From Sabellastarte sp. h YS-2021 (taxonomy: Eukaryota; Annelida; Polychaeta; Sabellida; Sabellidae), in assembly GCA_964017235.1 (NCBI GenBank), contig OZ024940.1, forward strand, positions 30,870,573 through 30,934,572: a stretch of 64,000 nt of DNA, written 5' to 3'. The translations under genes and the position numbers were made by a program. The notes below the pieces were generated by a model. The model made no database searches, was not told the origin of the DNA, and saw only the letters and a list, made by a program, of their open reading frames with translations. Shown here piece after piece: positions 12,610 through 61,168 of this stretch (position 1 is the stretch's first letter; every line of letters begins with the position of its first letter).

Positions 12610-12765
12610 ACTTTTCATGGGGCCTAAAACAGGCTCCCACTTAATGTCAGATCCCAAACAGACCATTTCAAGCTTTAGAAGCCAACTCATGACTTGCCTA
12701 TTTAGACGAGCTTACCCACCACCACATTATCCTCACCTAGCGGGCACTTACTGGGTTACGATTTT
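12610..12765 (+). pseudogene. L2/CR1-like LINE 3' coding fragment
   Basis: Translated pieces in two frames match the C-terminus of the retrotransposon at 49703-50577: NRLPLNVRSQ, then SFRSQLMTCLFRRAYPPP (compare FRSQLKTYLFRLAYPPP). A stop and a frame change separate them, so it is dead. It joins a hAT MITE family 2 fragment at about 12765. Confidence 0.7.
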
Positions 12766-13016
12766 TGCTTACATTTTCGTCACATAACATCAATTAAAGT
12801 TGTTGTTTTCACTTGAAAACCGAAAATTTACCTCATAATCTATAATATCTGGTTAAATAGAAGACGTTTTTCTTCAAAAGTTTCGTTTCTGGAATCGACT
12901 ATTTGTTTACAGAAGACTTCTAATGGTGGGAACTAAATCTCGCGGTTACTCGAATTCGGGCCGGTTTTCAGAGGGCGAGTACTCGATGCCGTTTTTTTGT
13001 ACCCGTCACAGCCCTA
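12766..13016 (+). mobile_element. hAT-type MITE family 2, right part
   Basis: Matches the right 250 bp of the intact copy at 56821-57200: CACATAACATCAATTAAAG, GGTTAAATAGAAGACG, CAGAAGACTTCTAATGGT, CTAAATCTCGCGGTTACTCG, ending CAGCCCTA at 13016. The left half is replaced by the LINE fragment. Confidence 0.8.
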
Positions 13017-48299: not shown

Positions 48300-49173
48300 G
48301 TATGCTAACCAGTTTGTTCGTTTTTTTTTTTATGTGGGGAGGGTCTGACCAAAGGGAAGAAATAATAACTTCTGGGAAAGATCTGAATCCTATTCTGGAT
48401 ACAAAAATAAAAAAAAGATCCTGAATTTTCAAAGAGTCCCATTTTCAGTGTCCTTTCAACCACCCTTTTAGCTCTCTGGTTGACATTACTCCAAAACTAA
48501 CGAGTGGATCTTATGAAACTATTTCTTAGGGATGGGTCAGTAGGCTCGGTATCGAGAGGATTTTACTGAAATACCATGACGAGATTTTACAACCGCTACT
48601 TTGCTTTTGAACACATACAATGGAAGGAAGAGTTAAAATATTAGAAACATACTCAAAATCTGAAGAAATTATAAGCTTTTATCCCCAATTTTCATGCATT
48701 TGCAGACTTTATACAGTACTGGCCATTACATTGAGCAGAACTGCCATGTTTGGTTACGACACTTTATGACTTTCATCTCGCTTGTTAACTCTTATAATTG
48801 AAGGAAAACTTAAAATATTGGGAACAAACAAGAAATATGAAGAAAACATAGGCTTTTACCTGATATTTTGTGCATTTAGGCACTTTTATTGCGATGTCGT
48901 GAAGAGGAACGTCCATGTTTGGTTGGGACGTACTAAAACGCGGAGTCCTGGAATCGGTACGGTTTTGCATTGATGACCTCCTGCTGTACACATTTTTCAT
49001 ATTGACCCATCCCTACTATTTCTGTGGGTGGGGAAGAAGTGTTTACATTTTGGGGGAAAGATCTGGATGATATTCTCAAACAAAAACAAAAAATCCCAAA
49101 CTATAGAAAACGCTCACTGGTGGAGGTCTGAACTCTTCGAGTGCTTTTTAGCTGTTACTCTACTTCAGGTATG
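48300..49173. repeat. Older dispersed repeat (family R1) interrupted by a hAT MITE
   Basis: Left (48460-48526) ATTACTCCAAAACTAACGAG and TTATGAAACTATTTCT; right (49016-49150) CTATTTCTGTGGGTGGGGAA and AAGATCTGGATGATATTCTC. An uninterrupted relative at 57841-58020 runs straight through the equivalent point, so it serves as an empty-site reference. Confidence 0.75.
48527..49015 (+). mobile_element. hAT-type MITE family 3, complete, 8-bp target duplication
   Basis: Inverted ends TAGGGATGGGTCA and TGACCCATCCCTA; perfect duplication CTATTTCT at 48519-48526 and 49016-49023. 489 bp, noncoding, with an inner partial duplication (CTGCCATGTTTGGTTACGAC near 48740 and CGTCCATGTTTGGTTGGGAC near 48910). Confidence 0.95.
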
Positions 49174-49702
49174 ATTATCAGTAGGGCTGTGAACGGTTAC
49201 TCCAGCCTCGATAGACAAGTCTGTCTCTGCTAGGATTTGATAGGACAGGGTCGGTAGCAGATTTTCCATGTCGGTCTCCCGCCAGTGTAAAACCGTACCG
49301 ATTCCAGGATACCGAAACAAATAGCGTTCTAGTATATCCCCAATTGAATAGTCCCGCCAACCGGGAAGTAAGATTCACGAAAAGAAAACGTTGCAGTTCT
49401 GAAAGAATTCACTGTAAAAGTGCTAAAATATATAAAAAATGTGTGATAAAAGTTTGAAATTTTTTCAGATTTGAGGTTTGTTTCTAACATTTTATGTTTT
49501 CTCACAATATTATATACGTTTGTGTAAAATATGCTATATTTCTGCATTTCCACCACATAATATCAATTAAAGTTGTGGTTTTCACTTTAAAAATGTATAA
49601 TTTACTCCATATTCTATAATATCTGGTAAATAGAAGATGTTTTTCTTCAAAAGTTTTGTTTCCAGAATCAACTATTGGTTTACAGAAGACTTCTAAAGGT
49701 AG

Positions 49703-50577
49703 AATTAGAATTAGAATAGAAACATTTATATAGCGCAAAATTGATGCAACATCCTCTAATGCGCTTGAAATCAAAAAGGGAAAGTCGAGGGACGTTCGAG
49801 GTCATGATCCAAGGTTAGCGCCCGCCAGGGAGATGTACTATGGTGGAGGATATGCTAATCTAAACAAGTAGGTCTTTAGCTGACTACGGAAACCTGTTAT
49901 TGTTTGTTGTGATCGTACTGATTGTGGGAGTCTGTTCCATTCTATGGGGGAAGCCACTACAAAACCTCTCCTACCGATGGCCTTTTTGTGAGAGGCTGAG
50001 GAAAGAGAAAGACGATTTCCACGTGTTAGACAACTGGTTTTGATCAAGGATGATAGGTATATGGGTTGAGAGAAATTTATAGCCTTGAAAGTAATTAGAT
50101 TGTACTTAAACAATATACGGTAAGTGATAGGAAGCCAGTGTAGTTTTTGAAGAAAAGGAGTGACATGGCTAGTTCTATCAAGTCTAAAAACAATTCTACA
50201 AAGGGCATTTTGTATCTTTTGGAGTTTAGCAACATTGTACTTACTGATGCCATAAAGTAGGGAATTGCAGTAGTCAAGTCGACTACTGATCATTGAGTTT
50301 GCAAGCAAGGCTGCAGTTTCCACACTGAGGAATTTACGAATACGTCTTAGGTCCTTAAGGTGGTAGTAGCAGGCTCGACACATATTAGTTATGTGGTTGG
50401 AAAAGGTGTTTCCAGAGTCAAAAATTACACCCAGGTTCTTGACTGTATCAGTAGGGGAAATAGAATTTCCGAGAAGTTGAGTTATGGAATTTATTAATGA
50501 GGGACTCTCTGGCTTGTCTATCACCTATTATAATAAATTCAGTTTTCTCGGGATTGAGTTTCAATTTCACGCCAGCT
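49703..50577 (-). pseudogene. L2/CR1-like LINE, 5'-truncated reverse transcriptase remnant
   Basis: A minus-strand frame (50524-49838, about 228 codons) holds TVKNLGVIFDS, SRLDYCNSLLYGISK, LHWLPITYRILFK, EWNRLPQSVRS and FRSQLKTYLFRLAYPPP, the familiar C-terminal part of Jockey-group LINE reverse transcriptases. Just upstream in another frame LKLNPEKTEFIIIGD is readable, so a frameshift lies near 50524; the frame has no ATG. The 3' end is a (TTCTAA)n tail at 49703-49720. It is flanked by AGGTAG on both sides (49697-49702, 50578-50583). Truncated and inactive. Confidence 0.88.
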
Positions 50578-50672
50578 AGGTAGGTACTAAATCTCGCGAT
50601 TAGTCGAATTCGGGCAGGTTGTCAGAGGGCGAGTACTCGGGGCTGTTTTTTAGCAACCGTCCCTGCCCTTAA

Positions 50673-51078
50673 AGGGGAAAGTTTTCGACCCGGGACGAAA
50701 ATCTCCTCAACTTACAAAGATCATACATTTGAAGTCTTCATATACAAATATCAACAAACACCACAGCTTACTGGGATATAACATATCACCTTTGACAGCA
50801 TTGATAAACTCTTCCTTCCAGACTAAAAGGGCATAAGTTCTCGAGGAATTTTGTTACTTGATGCAGTTTTTTTACTGTTTTAAAGTACACAAACTTTATT
50901 TAAATTTTCAACAGCAGATTCCCACATAAGTCCTTCTGTACATGGCAGTTGTTAATTATCTGAGATAAGTGTACATTACAATGCACTTGCCATGCAACAT
51001 GAGTTTGTCTATTGTAGCATCACAATTGACAGTGGAATGAAGGTTCTTAAATGCTCTTTGACCCCTCGACTTTGGGCT
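50673..51078 (+). mobile_element. TTAA-flanked MITE, copy 1
   Basis: 406 bp, starting AGGGGAAAGTTTTCGACCCG and ending ...CTCGACTTTGGGCT, flanked by TTAA at 50669-50672 and 51079-51082. Tips (AGGGGAAAGT / AGCCCAAAGT) are imperfectly inverted. TTAA targets are characteristic of piggyBac-type transposases. It inserted exactly at the right tip of the hAT MITE. Confidence 0.85.
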
Positions 51079-51082
51079 TTAA

Positions 51083-51696
51083 ATTATCAGTAATGTGAAA
51101 ATCGCGCATAAAATCTGCATACATCAAACCGCAAACAGGTGAATGCACCTTTACCCAACAACTGCGGCATTTTTTAGTGACCAGTATTTACACAAAGTTG
51201 TAAATTTAAACAGTTTTTGTAACCTAGTTTAATTTTCTAGAAGTTTTGAAAAGCAACAACATTTTTCTCACGATCTGAGAGATTCCAATTACAACCCTTT
51301 TCCCTCGGTAACAAGTGTTTTCTAGTGTTTTAAACAAGAAAATTCTTTCTTTTTTAACATCTACAGCATGGTTTAGACAGGATGTTTACATAGAGTTGTA
51401 AGTGTGTGTCTGAAATTAAGTTCTCATGTGCCCTGATTTGCCATTGGTGGTTAACAATTTCTTTTTAAACAACTAAAAACCAGTTTCACGAGGTTTCAAC
51501 ATGAACAAACTTGACTGTTTCCATAGATAAAGTGATTCATTTTCAAGTCTGCACACATAAGGCATAATTAAACAAAACAAACAACATTGCGACATATTTA
51601 CATAGGGATTACTTTTAATTTTTTTAAAATTTTTTTATGTCTCCGGACTTTCATGAATTGTGGCGTAGCGAATATCTGTCTCTTCACTGAAGTTAA
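51083..51696. other. Spacer between the two TTAA MITEs
   Basis: No gene. The last 125 bp (51568-51692: TTAAACAAAACAAACAACAT to TCTCTTCACTGAAG) is nearly repeated after copy 2 (52104-52287), including the start of a 5S-like SINE. Confidence 0.7.
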
Positions 51697-52103
51697 AGCC
51701 CAAAGTCGAGGGGTCAAAGAGCATTTATGAACCTTCATTCATCTGTCAAGTGTGATGCTAAAATAAACAAACTAATGTTGCATGGCAAGTGCATTGTAAT
51801 ATACTCCTATCTCAGATAATTAACAACTGTCAGTGTACAGAGGGACTTATGTAGGAATCTGCTGTTGAAAATTTAAATAAAGTTTGTGTACTTTAAAACA
51901 GTAAAAAAACTGCATCAAGTAACAAAATTCCTTGAGAACTTATGCCATTTTAGTCTGGAAGGAAGAGTTTATCAGTGCTGTCAAAAGAGATATGTTATAT
52001 CCCAGTAAGCTGTGGTGTTTGTTGATATTTGGATATGAAGACTGTAAATGTATGATCTTTGTAATTTGAGGAGATTTTCGTCCCGGGTCGAAAACTTTCC
52101 CCT
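51697..52103 (-). mobile_element. TTAA-flanked MITE, copy 2 (inverted)
   Basis: Nearly identical to copy 1 in opposite orientation (AGCCCAAAGTCGAGGGGTCA ... CGGGTCGAAAACTTTCCCCT), flanked by TTAA at 51693-51696 and 52104-52107. The pair forms 406-bp arms around a 0.6-kb loop. A 63-codon minus-strand frame in it is not a gene. Confidence 0.88.
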
Positions 52104-52248
52104 TTAAACAAAACAAACAACATTGCGACATATTTTAATCACGAGCTCCTGCAAGGCTGGTGCTTAAAGGGATCATTTTTTGTTGGTTTTTTTTAAAATT
52201 TTTTTAAAATTTTTTTTTGTTTTTTTTGTCTCCAGACTTTCATGAATT

Positions 52249-52385
52249 GTGGCGTAGCGTGGCGAGTATCTGTCTCTTCACTGAAGTTGAGCAGCAATAG
52301 GCTACATTAGTAACTTAGTACTGGGATGGGTGACCACTTTAGTGCACTATTCGTGTCTCTGATGGCTTGGCAGCTCGCGCTAATA
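52249..52385 (+). mobile_element. 5S-rRNA-related SINE (SINE3-like)
   Basis: CACTGAAGTTGAGCAGCA (52280-52297) matches the A box of 5S rRNA, and TTAGTACTGGGATGGGTGAC (52316-52335) plus C its C box, in the right order and spacing for the internal control region. The 5' end of 5S rRNA and the final stem are not recognisable, so this is a 5S-derived retroposon or relic, not a working 5S gene. A truncated partner lies at 51655-51692. Confidence 0.7.
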
Positions 52386-52389
52386 GACC

Positions 52390-54495
52390 AAAACCCCTTT
52401 CGACCTTGTTTTAAGTTTATTTTCCATAGTTTTCAGCACAAATAAAGTCACACAGTCAGATACGTCACTAAGATAAACATTCTTAGCATACCCAAGTTGG
52501 TGGTTATGCTTCTAGCAGTATGCATTTGTCAAATTGTTTACTAACTCAAAAAGCTACGAACTGATTTTGAGGCAAATTGAGGGAAGTGCTGACTATGGCA
52601 AAATGAACAGATGATTCGATTTCGATGGTGATTCGGATCACTGTCTGGATCTAGGAAGTTGTAAACACTGCTTACGATACAGGGCCTTTTCAGTACGACC
52701 TTGTTTGACCTTGGGTCATTAGTCGAAGATGAAAGCTGACCATTTAAACGGATCTGCCGGCCATAATTTGGTATAGCTTGACATCAGAATTGCCAAACAT
52801 GTACTACCAATAATAACTGAAATATAGAAACATTTATATTTGGCCTGGTAGTTTCTAAGGTCAAATGTCCGCATGCTTGTAGAGGGCATCTACATCTGCT
52901 AAACCTACAACCCATACAGAGATTCAGTCTTTGATAGCTGAAAACCAACCACAGTTTGCTGGTTGAAAGCTGTATACCCAATGGCCGCAATTGCCCTCTT
53001 GTTCACAGCTGTGCTGTAAATTACATTTTATTTTGTCTACGAACCTGTGTGCACTGACAGGAAGGAGTCTTTTTCATGAAAACATTTGTTAATGCATCTG
53101 AAGTCACACTTTAGGAATCTGTTTGATTTCATGGGAAAACTTGTTTCCTTGTAAAACAGTGATCTGTTCTTATAAGCTATGCAATTTACTGCAAGATCTG
53201 AAAGTATCATTTGAGCTGAAATGAAGCTAAACTGTTTTTTCACAGCTGCAAAGGCTATGGTAGCCATTTTGTTTTTCTACAAATCAGCAGTGAGCATGGC
53301 ATTAACATGTGTAAAATTGGGTCATCATATCTGATGTGGTTTTTGCTTTCAGTTTTCAACAAAATGGCCATGACGGCCATCTTGTTTTTTTTTTATTATT
53401 TTAGAATATGTCTAAAATCAATAGCAACAATCAAAGTCTGGATTTTTCGTCCTATTCAATAGCCAGGGGCATATGGAGATGGGGCCTTGGCTTAAACTCA
53501 ATGACAAGGTGGCCATTCACATATAAGACCTCTTTGTTACATTTGGTCACAATATCTGATACGATTTGGCCTTGAAACACTTAGAAACAGTTTCTCAGCA
53601 GACAGCCATGTCGACCATCTTTGCTTTCCAGAAAGCGCCCAAGTGCCGAAAATCCTTATGCAGTAAACTTATATCTAAAAATTACTAACGATTAATTAAT
53701 AAGGTCTTTTTCCCCATTAAACTAGGAGAAACAGTTTTTAAGAAAAATGGCTAAGGTGACAATCTTGTTTTTTAAAATGAGGCTATAAGTAGTTCTAAAC
53801 AAGCTTTTATGCCAGTGTCTACATGGTGACACTTTGGCAAAGCTAAGTTGAAAAGTTTTCCTGTGATAAGAAAATCTCTCTATGCATTACGACGGCAGTG
53901 GCAACAGAACAATGCCTAATGCAATATATCTACTGGATACAAGTTTTAAGACTCATTCATTTGTATTTCACACATAAGACAACTGGTCTAGAACAACAGT
54001 CTAGCGGGCGTACGGGGAGGAAAAACCACAAAAGGTTTCAAATGTTAGCCAAAAACTCCGCTCCGGGGAGCTGGCCAAGAAATAACAACAGAGAAACACA
54101 CGCTGATGTCTTTGAAAACTGACAAAAACCTGTCAGAAAGTGTGGTCTGCATTTGCTGGCGACCTCCATGTTAATTTACATGGAATCAGGGATGAAAGAC
54201 TTGCACTATACTGAGATGGAAGGAGGGGGGAGGGAGTAGTAGAATGAAGTATGCCTGGATTTGACCACTTGTAATCAGAATTCTGGACTAATGAGAGGGT
54301 TGGGAGGGGAGATGGGGGTTGGGTTATCATGTTTGGAGCTCAAGGGCGATTTTGTTGAAAAGGGGGATTGGAAATGTTAGTGGTTTAACACATTTGTAAA
54401 CACAATGGGCCTCTTCATTTCTGATTATGCTGTTGATGTCAATTTAGCATGAATATCTGTAGATTAACAATGCAGTTGTAATCACCTCTTTAAAG
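52390..54495. other. Non-coding stretch
   Basis: Contains single satellite C-like blocks (GACCTTGTTTGACCTTGGGT at 52697, GGTCAAATGTCCGCATGC at 52859) and two similar segments with GTGGCCATCTTGTTTTTTT-like sequence (53370, 53755; compare 44265). No gene seen. Confidence 0.45.
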
Positions 54496-56820: not shown

Positions 56821-57200
56821 TAGGGCTGCGAACGGTTACCCGAGCCTCGATAGACGAGTCGGTCATTGCGGGGACTCGAGTCCATTTTAACTACTCAAGT
56901 AGTGATAGTGTATTGTATTATCACCCGCAAAGTGAAACGTTTGTGTAAAATATGCTACATTTTTGCATTTCCGCCACATAATATCAATTAAAGTTATGAT
57001 TTTGGCTTAAAAATGTATACTTGACTCCATATTCTATAATACCTGGTTAAATAGATGAAGTTTTCCTTCAAAAGTTTCGCCACCATTTGTTTGCAGAAGA
57101 CTTCTAATGGTAGATACTAAATCTCGTGGTTACTCGAACTCGGGTCAGTTGTCAGACTGCGGTCATTCGGTGCTGTTTTTTAGCACCCGTTCCAGCCCTA
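56821..57200 (+). mobile_element. hAT-type MITE family 2, complete copy
   Basis: 380 bp, TAGGGCTGCGAACGGTTACC ... CGTTCCAGCCCTA; 8-bp flanks ATTATTTT (56813-56820) and ACTATTTT (57201-57208) differ at one base. The reference copy for the broken ones at 12766, 17243 and 49182. Confidence 0.9.
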
Positions 57201-60770: not shown

Positions 60771-61168
60771 TAGGGGGGTGACTGAGCAGTTGACACTCGC
60801 CAAGCGAGGCAAATTTCATGAAAATTCAATCCCAATTTTAAGGGTCAACTACGTGTAGTCGTGTCCATATAACAACCTATTGAAGCGGTTACGTTTTTTA
60901 GGAAATAAAAAATAAATAACATAACTTGCTGGCATTAAATCGCATAATCCACCATTTTTAACATAATATTAAGTATATTATATGACGACATCAGCTAATT
61001 CAAGCGATTCAAAGCTTTTGTCTTTATATTTTTGTTGTTTACGGGAGGCGCCATATCGCATGTTGTTTCCTGTAATGGTGGATACTGAACTTTGCGAGGG
61101 CTCGATGTCGAGTCGATTTTTTGTCCGCGAGCAATCGACCCGAATTATTTGTACTCGTCACACCCCTA
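60771..61168 (-). mobile_element. hAT-type MITE family 1, copy 3
   Basis: 398 bp in reverse of 38393-38786 and nearly identical (CAACCTATTGAAGCGGTTAC, TTAAATCGCATAATCCACCA). Flanks GTAGCCAT (60763-60770) and CTAGCCAT (61169-61176) match at 7 of 8 bases. Confidence 0.92.

Follow-up and report, generated by a model that had tools for sequence, protein, structure and literature searches.

What kind of history has left several mobile elements packed into less than 2 kb of annelid DNA, and can the order of their arrival be read? The question is raised by positions 49174-51090 of a 64,000-nucleotide stretch of the genome of Sabellastarte sp. (the window). A preliminary description, made from the sequence alone, proposed a three-layer nest, with a hAT MITE carrying a LINE and a TTAA-flanked MITE. 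To this locus we applied scripted coordinate checks, alignments, and searches of the window's own assembly (1,785,957,881 bases, 1.79 Gb, in 647 contigs), scoring the best 40 candidates in each search. Target duplications and copies elsewhere in the genome bear out the nesting but not the number of layers: 49174-51090 consists of four insertions of common mobile elements, in and beside one another, and a second hAT MITE at 49241-49517 had been overlooked. We consider it nearly certain that this four-element nest is the product of separate, ordinary transposition events. With the outer hAT MITE called hAT-A and the overlooked one hAT-B, its parts are as follows.

49174-49181, no strand: left 8-bp target duplication of hAT-A, ATTATCAG (read by eye and checked by script).
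49182-49240, plus strand: left tip of the hAT-A MITE, beginning TAGGGCTG (ungapped alignment to the copy at 56821, 48 of 59 bases identical).
49241-49517, plus strand: fragment of the hAT-B MITE, with its left end TAGGACAGGGTCGG kept and its right ~93 bp missing (genome matches, family duplications, junction alignment).
49518-49702, plus strand: middle of the hAT-A MITE; its last bases, 49697-49702, are the left AGGTAG of the LINE duplication (alignment, family loci).
49703-50576, minus strand: 5'-truncated LINE, with a 3' tail of AATTAG/AATAG repeats at 49703 (genome copies).
50578-50583, no strand: right LINE duplication AGGTAG, preceded by one extra base at 50577 (script, alignment, family loci).
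50584-50668, plus strand: right part and tip of the hAT-A MITE (alignment, family loci).
50669-50672, no strand: left TTAA (script, genome copies).
50673-51078, plus strand: 406-bp MITE-like TTAA element with ends AGGGGAAAG...CTTTGGGCT (script, genome copies).
51079-51082, no strand: right TTAA (script, genome copies).
51083-51090, no strand: right 8-bp target duplication of hAT-A, ATTATCAG (read by eye and checked by script).

The outermost layer is marked by ATTATCAG, which a reading of 48800-51500 and the coordinate check placed at 49174-49181 and at 51083-51090, as the preliminary description had it. This 8-mer occurs six times on the plus strand of the window and once on the minus strand; for a randomly chosen place in the window, finding an exact 8-mer match no more than ±3 bases away has p=4.7e-4. 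hAT MITEs are short elements with 8-bp target duplications and inverted ends of the TAGGG/CCCTA type. Both hAT-A and hAT-B resemble them in all of these respects.

To characterize the hAT-A family, 30 loci of ~3.2 kb each, the nest included, were fetched from the best 40 of 2073 first-look candidates; the 29 others match at 89-92%. The family is ~390 bp long, with inverted ends TAGGGCTG.../...CAGCCCTA. Of the 29 other loci, 20 have an 8-bp duplication with no more than one mismatch (12 at a length of exactly 390 bp, seven at 371-399 bp, and one, L060, at 775 bp), and the script found no clean duplication at the remaining nine. L060 was paired from the start of hAT-B to the end of hAT-A, and it is the only one of the 29 to contain hAT-B, which lies beside hAT-A. 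There, one 8-bp target appears three times, in the arrangement ATAATAAG - hAT-B - ATAATAAG - hAT-A - ATAATAAG, and beyond it the 8-mer recurs twice more, at 145-base intervals. Across 20 hAT-A copies 370-400 bp long, the majority sequence is TGGTAGGTACTAAATC where the nested LINE lies and CCGTCCCAGCCCTA at the right end.

Two more copies of hAT-A lie in the window, at 56821-57200 and at 12772-13015. The first has the duplication ATTATTTT/ACTATTTT, with one mismatch. When the nest was aligned to it, as the preliminary description had suggested, the left tip agreed (48/59 bases) and most of 49241-49516 was unmatched. The second copy lacks the left part and adjoins a LINE piece on the plus strand at 12656-12724 (region 12656-13015), the protein of which equals the C terminus of the nested LINE in 17 of 23 residues.

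The unmatched stretch was identified with a search using 49182-49700 (519 bases) as query. Among the best 40 of 4393 candidates, all outside the nest, 39 were 87-90% identical to the query and one was 76% identical. The 39 closer matches are confined to query bases 54-65 to 330-337, about 49241-49517 of the window, and in 30 the match begins exactly at query base 60, window base 49241. At the 29 loci fetched, the equivalent of base 49241 opens TAGG in 27 and TAGA in two, the usual right end is CCGACCCTGCCCTA, and hAT-A sequence was not found. Of the 29, 23 carry an 8-bp duplication with one mismatch or none (19 exact), at lengths of 362-371 bp; the script found none at the other six. hAT-B is therefore a family of 370-bp hAT MITEs with inverted ends and 8-bp duplications, and the nested copy has lost its right end. 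Indeed, alignment shows hAT-A homology up to 49240 and hAT-B from 49241 on. We conclude from the family loci, their own duplications, and the fixed start at 49241 that hAT-B is a separate hAT MITE lying within hAT-A after base 59, and that 49182-49702 is not all hAT-A. The idea that 49241-49517 is a normal inner part of hAT-A was ruled out by the hAT-B genome matches and the hAT-A family loci.

Absent at the nest are the right ~93 bp of hAT-B, its right duplication, and ~58 bp of hAT-A. Because that duplication is missing, the insertion of hAT-B was judged by its left edge alone. At the junction, 49516-49517, the bases AC are common to both partners, which is what an end-joining deletion could leave. 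Rather than having arisen privately at this locus, by insertion and then deletion, the composite of hAT-A and hAT-B might be an amplified chimeric MITE subfamily, of which the nest is one copy; the ends of the two MITEs are alike, and L060 also has hAT-B directly beside hAT-A. However, none of the 40 other matches spans either junction (best 40 of 4393 candidates), and at L060 hAT-B lies outside hAT-A, next to the target duplication of hAT-A. We regard the subfamily as highly improbable, and retain a private insertion of hAT-B into hAT-A with a later deletion.

The LINE was said to be flanked by AGGTAG on both sides, and the script found this motif at 49697-49702 and 50578-50583. A 6-bp duplication is weak evidence when taken by itself (p=3.2e-3 in a chance test of the same form as that for the 8-mer), but it gains weight because in other hAT-A copies the site is single and unbroken. 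At none of the 29 other hAT-A loci (from the best 40 of 2073 candidates) is there a LINE at this site, and none of the 29 holds the TTAA element. Of these 29, L054 and L067 alone contain LINE pieces, which lie about 0.75-0.9 kb off the matched segment. hAT-A members that already hold the LINE, which the preliminary description had named as evidence against its own order, were thus sought in 29 loci without being found.

L2/CR1-type LINEs are characterized by 5' truncation, a short repeated 3' tail, and C-terminal protein motifs. The nested LINE is like them in each of these features, with the motifs drawn from a C-terminal piece of 228 codons only, and by those motifs it may be of the L2/CR1 type. 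The piece is an open frame on the minus strand (49838-50524), and the upstream LINE sequence continues in another frame. Searches of Pfam and PDB with this frame each returned a single weak match, unrelated and short of any cut-off, and lent the L2/CR1 label no support; the LINE protein had no relative in viral_contigs or genome_contigs.

The truncation had also been proposed earlier, and it held. With a 2101-base query covering the whole composite, the 39 other top matches (best 40 of 9733 candidates) cover the LINE part at 98-100%, and all 39 end at the LINE edge of the query. All seven fetched LINE copies continue past 50576 with the same letters, and hence the nested copy is 5'-truncated. 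The copies share a 3' end and differ in their 5' stops: compared with L003, L004 and L008 stop ~50 and ~85 bases further, respectively, and L002 and L007 run on for at least ~250. A LINE piece of fixed length, suggested by the identical match extents, was ruled out since copies run past the LINE edge of the query. The seven copies are ~99.5% identical to the nested one; the family has many nearly identical copies in the genome, which are hence probably recent.

The TTAA element, too, is as first described, with TTAA at 50669-50672 and 51079-51082 and 406 bp between them. The 39 other top matches (best 40 of 1166 candidates) are 95-97% identical to it; 37 span bases 1-414 with both TTAAs, and the remaining two fall one or two bases short at an end. 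All eight full-length copies chosen from these matches have TTAA at both ends beside unrelated flanks. Following TTAA, the ends read AGGGGAAAG and AGCCCAAAG and are partly alike, and they lack the CC[C/T]T motif described for the termini of piggyBac elements (PMC2872659). For this reason we use the name TTAA element and do not claim membership among piggyBac MITEs.

The junction between hAT-A and the TTAA element was found in none of the 39 other matches to a query across it (best 40 of 2693 candidates); all 39 begin at query bases 82-86, that is, at TTAA (base 86) or at most four bases earlier. The insertion had been placed at the junction of the MITE end and its duplication. The position stands, but the sequence is not a simple end plus duplication: the family end CCCTA followed by ATTATCAG predicts CCCTAATTATCAG, and the flanks read CCCTTAA plus TTAAATTATCAG, two bases more. 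A change at the tip before the insertion, or repair during it, could account for the extra bases.

The TTAA element abuts the tip of hAT-A and is not inside it, as would also be seen if it had already been at the target and hAT-A had landed beside it. Such a landing, however, would put the duplication directly at the hAT-A tip, where instead the TTAA element stands between the tip and the right ATTATCAG. That arrangement led us to reject a TTAA element older than hAT-A, the odds of which are extremely small. The outer 8-bp duplication encloses everything, as it would if hAT-A with hAT-B, the LINE, and the TTAA element had moved or been duplicated as one unit. Yet the whole 2101-base query is matched only by the window itself (best 40 of 9733 candidates), and the TTAA element lies beyond the end of hAT-A, so that the ends of hAT-A could not have carried it. 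The probability of a single-unit origin is close to nil, and separate insertions remain our reading.

The window has one more copy of the TTAA element, in opposite orientation, at 51693-52107 including its TTAAs; it agrees with the nested copy at 384 of 406 aligned bases. It sits between copies of a local repeat (region 51560-52300) composed of an identical 32 bp starting with TTAA (51568-51599 and 52104-52135) and an adjoining repeat (51617-51694 and 52197-52288). The repeat copies agree at 120 of 127 aligned bases, with several gaps, and the adjoining part belongs to a repeat dispersed across the genome. The arrangement may be a duplication whose junction coincides exactly with this TTAA element; reversed-ends transposition in maize offers a comparison (PMC3744419).

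Two further hAT-like MITEs were seen in the window. One (48527-49015; 48519-49023 with its perfect 8-bp duplication CTATTTCT) lies ~160 bp left of the nest and has inner sequence similar to hAT-B, and the other, at 60771-61168, has the duplication GTAGCCAT/CTAGCCAT. Positions 52225-52370 resemble, by eye, a sequence derived from 5S rRNA, perhaps a 5S-type SINE; Rfam gave nothing at an E of 1 or better on 51300-52700 and nothing on the window. A plasmid search and a promoter scan of 11 bases gave nothing useful, and a motif search of the literature found nothing related.

hAT-A is older than the other three elements, since all of them lie within it or within its duplication pair. Duplications and genome copies back the order given in the preliminary description, with the hAT MITE first and the LINE and TTAA element later. 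Compared with its closest scored copy elsewhere, hAT-B is 90% identical, hAT-A 92%, the TTAA element 97%, and the LINE, among seven aligned copies, 99.5% (40 top candidates scored in each search). Nearest-copy identity, used here in place of a tree, suggests that the LINE is the youngest and the TTAA element the next youngest; hAT-A and hAT-B would then be older, followed by the TTAA element and finally the LINE. The sequence itself shows that hAT-A inserted at ATTATCAG, that hAT-B begins after the 59th base of hAT-A, that a 5'-cut LINE is in the right half of hAT-A with a 6-bp duplication, and that the TTAA element is between the right tip of hAT-A and the hAT-A duplication. In the history we propose, hAT-B would have entered whole, and a later deletion with two shared bases (AC) would have taken the right ~93 bp of hAT-B, its right duplication, and ~58 bp of hAT-A.

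Nested insertion is an established clock: in TinT, nests of one element in another order transposon activity (PMC3014933). The present nest is like those in its insertions into older elements, overlapping duplications, and an order taken from containment; whereas TinT counts many retroposon nests (PMC3014933), here DNA elements and a LINE are mixed in a single nest. Coral CMITE is a piggyBac/TTAA MITE of ~100 bp, of which CMITE-IN sits at TTAA between direct repeats (PMC2872659). Our TTAA element is likewise short, with TTAA at both ends and a place between direct repeats, but differs from that description in its length (406 versus ~100 bp) and in its ends, AGGGGAAAG/AGCCCAAAG, which do not start with CC[C/T]T (PMC2872659). 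It is very unlikely that later DNA elements in this genome land preferentially where older MITEs have their ends or target duplications: the TTAA element between tip and duplication and the shared target at L060 are examples, but two do not show a preference.

Because they are short elements and a truncated LINE, none of the nested copies is likely to be able to move on its own, and nothing appears to point to a host function. The record is real and its history readable, yet it is ordinary genome debris, a fresh instance of a well-known kind of nesting. The general view of mobile elements is unchanged by it; the locus serves as a clear worked example of how insertion order is read from duplications.
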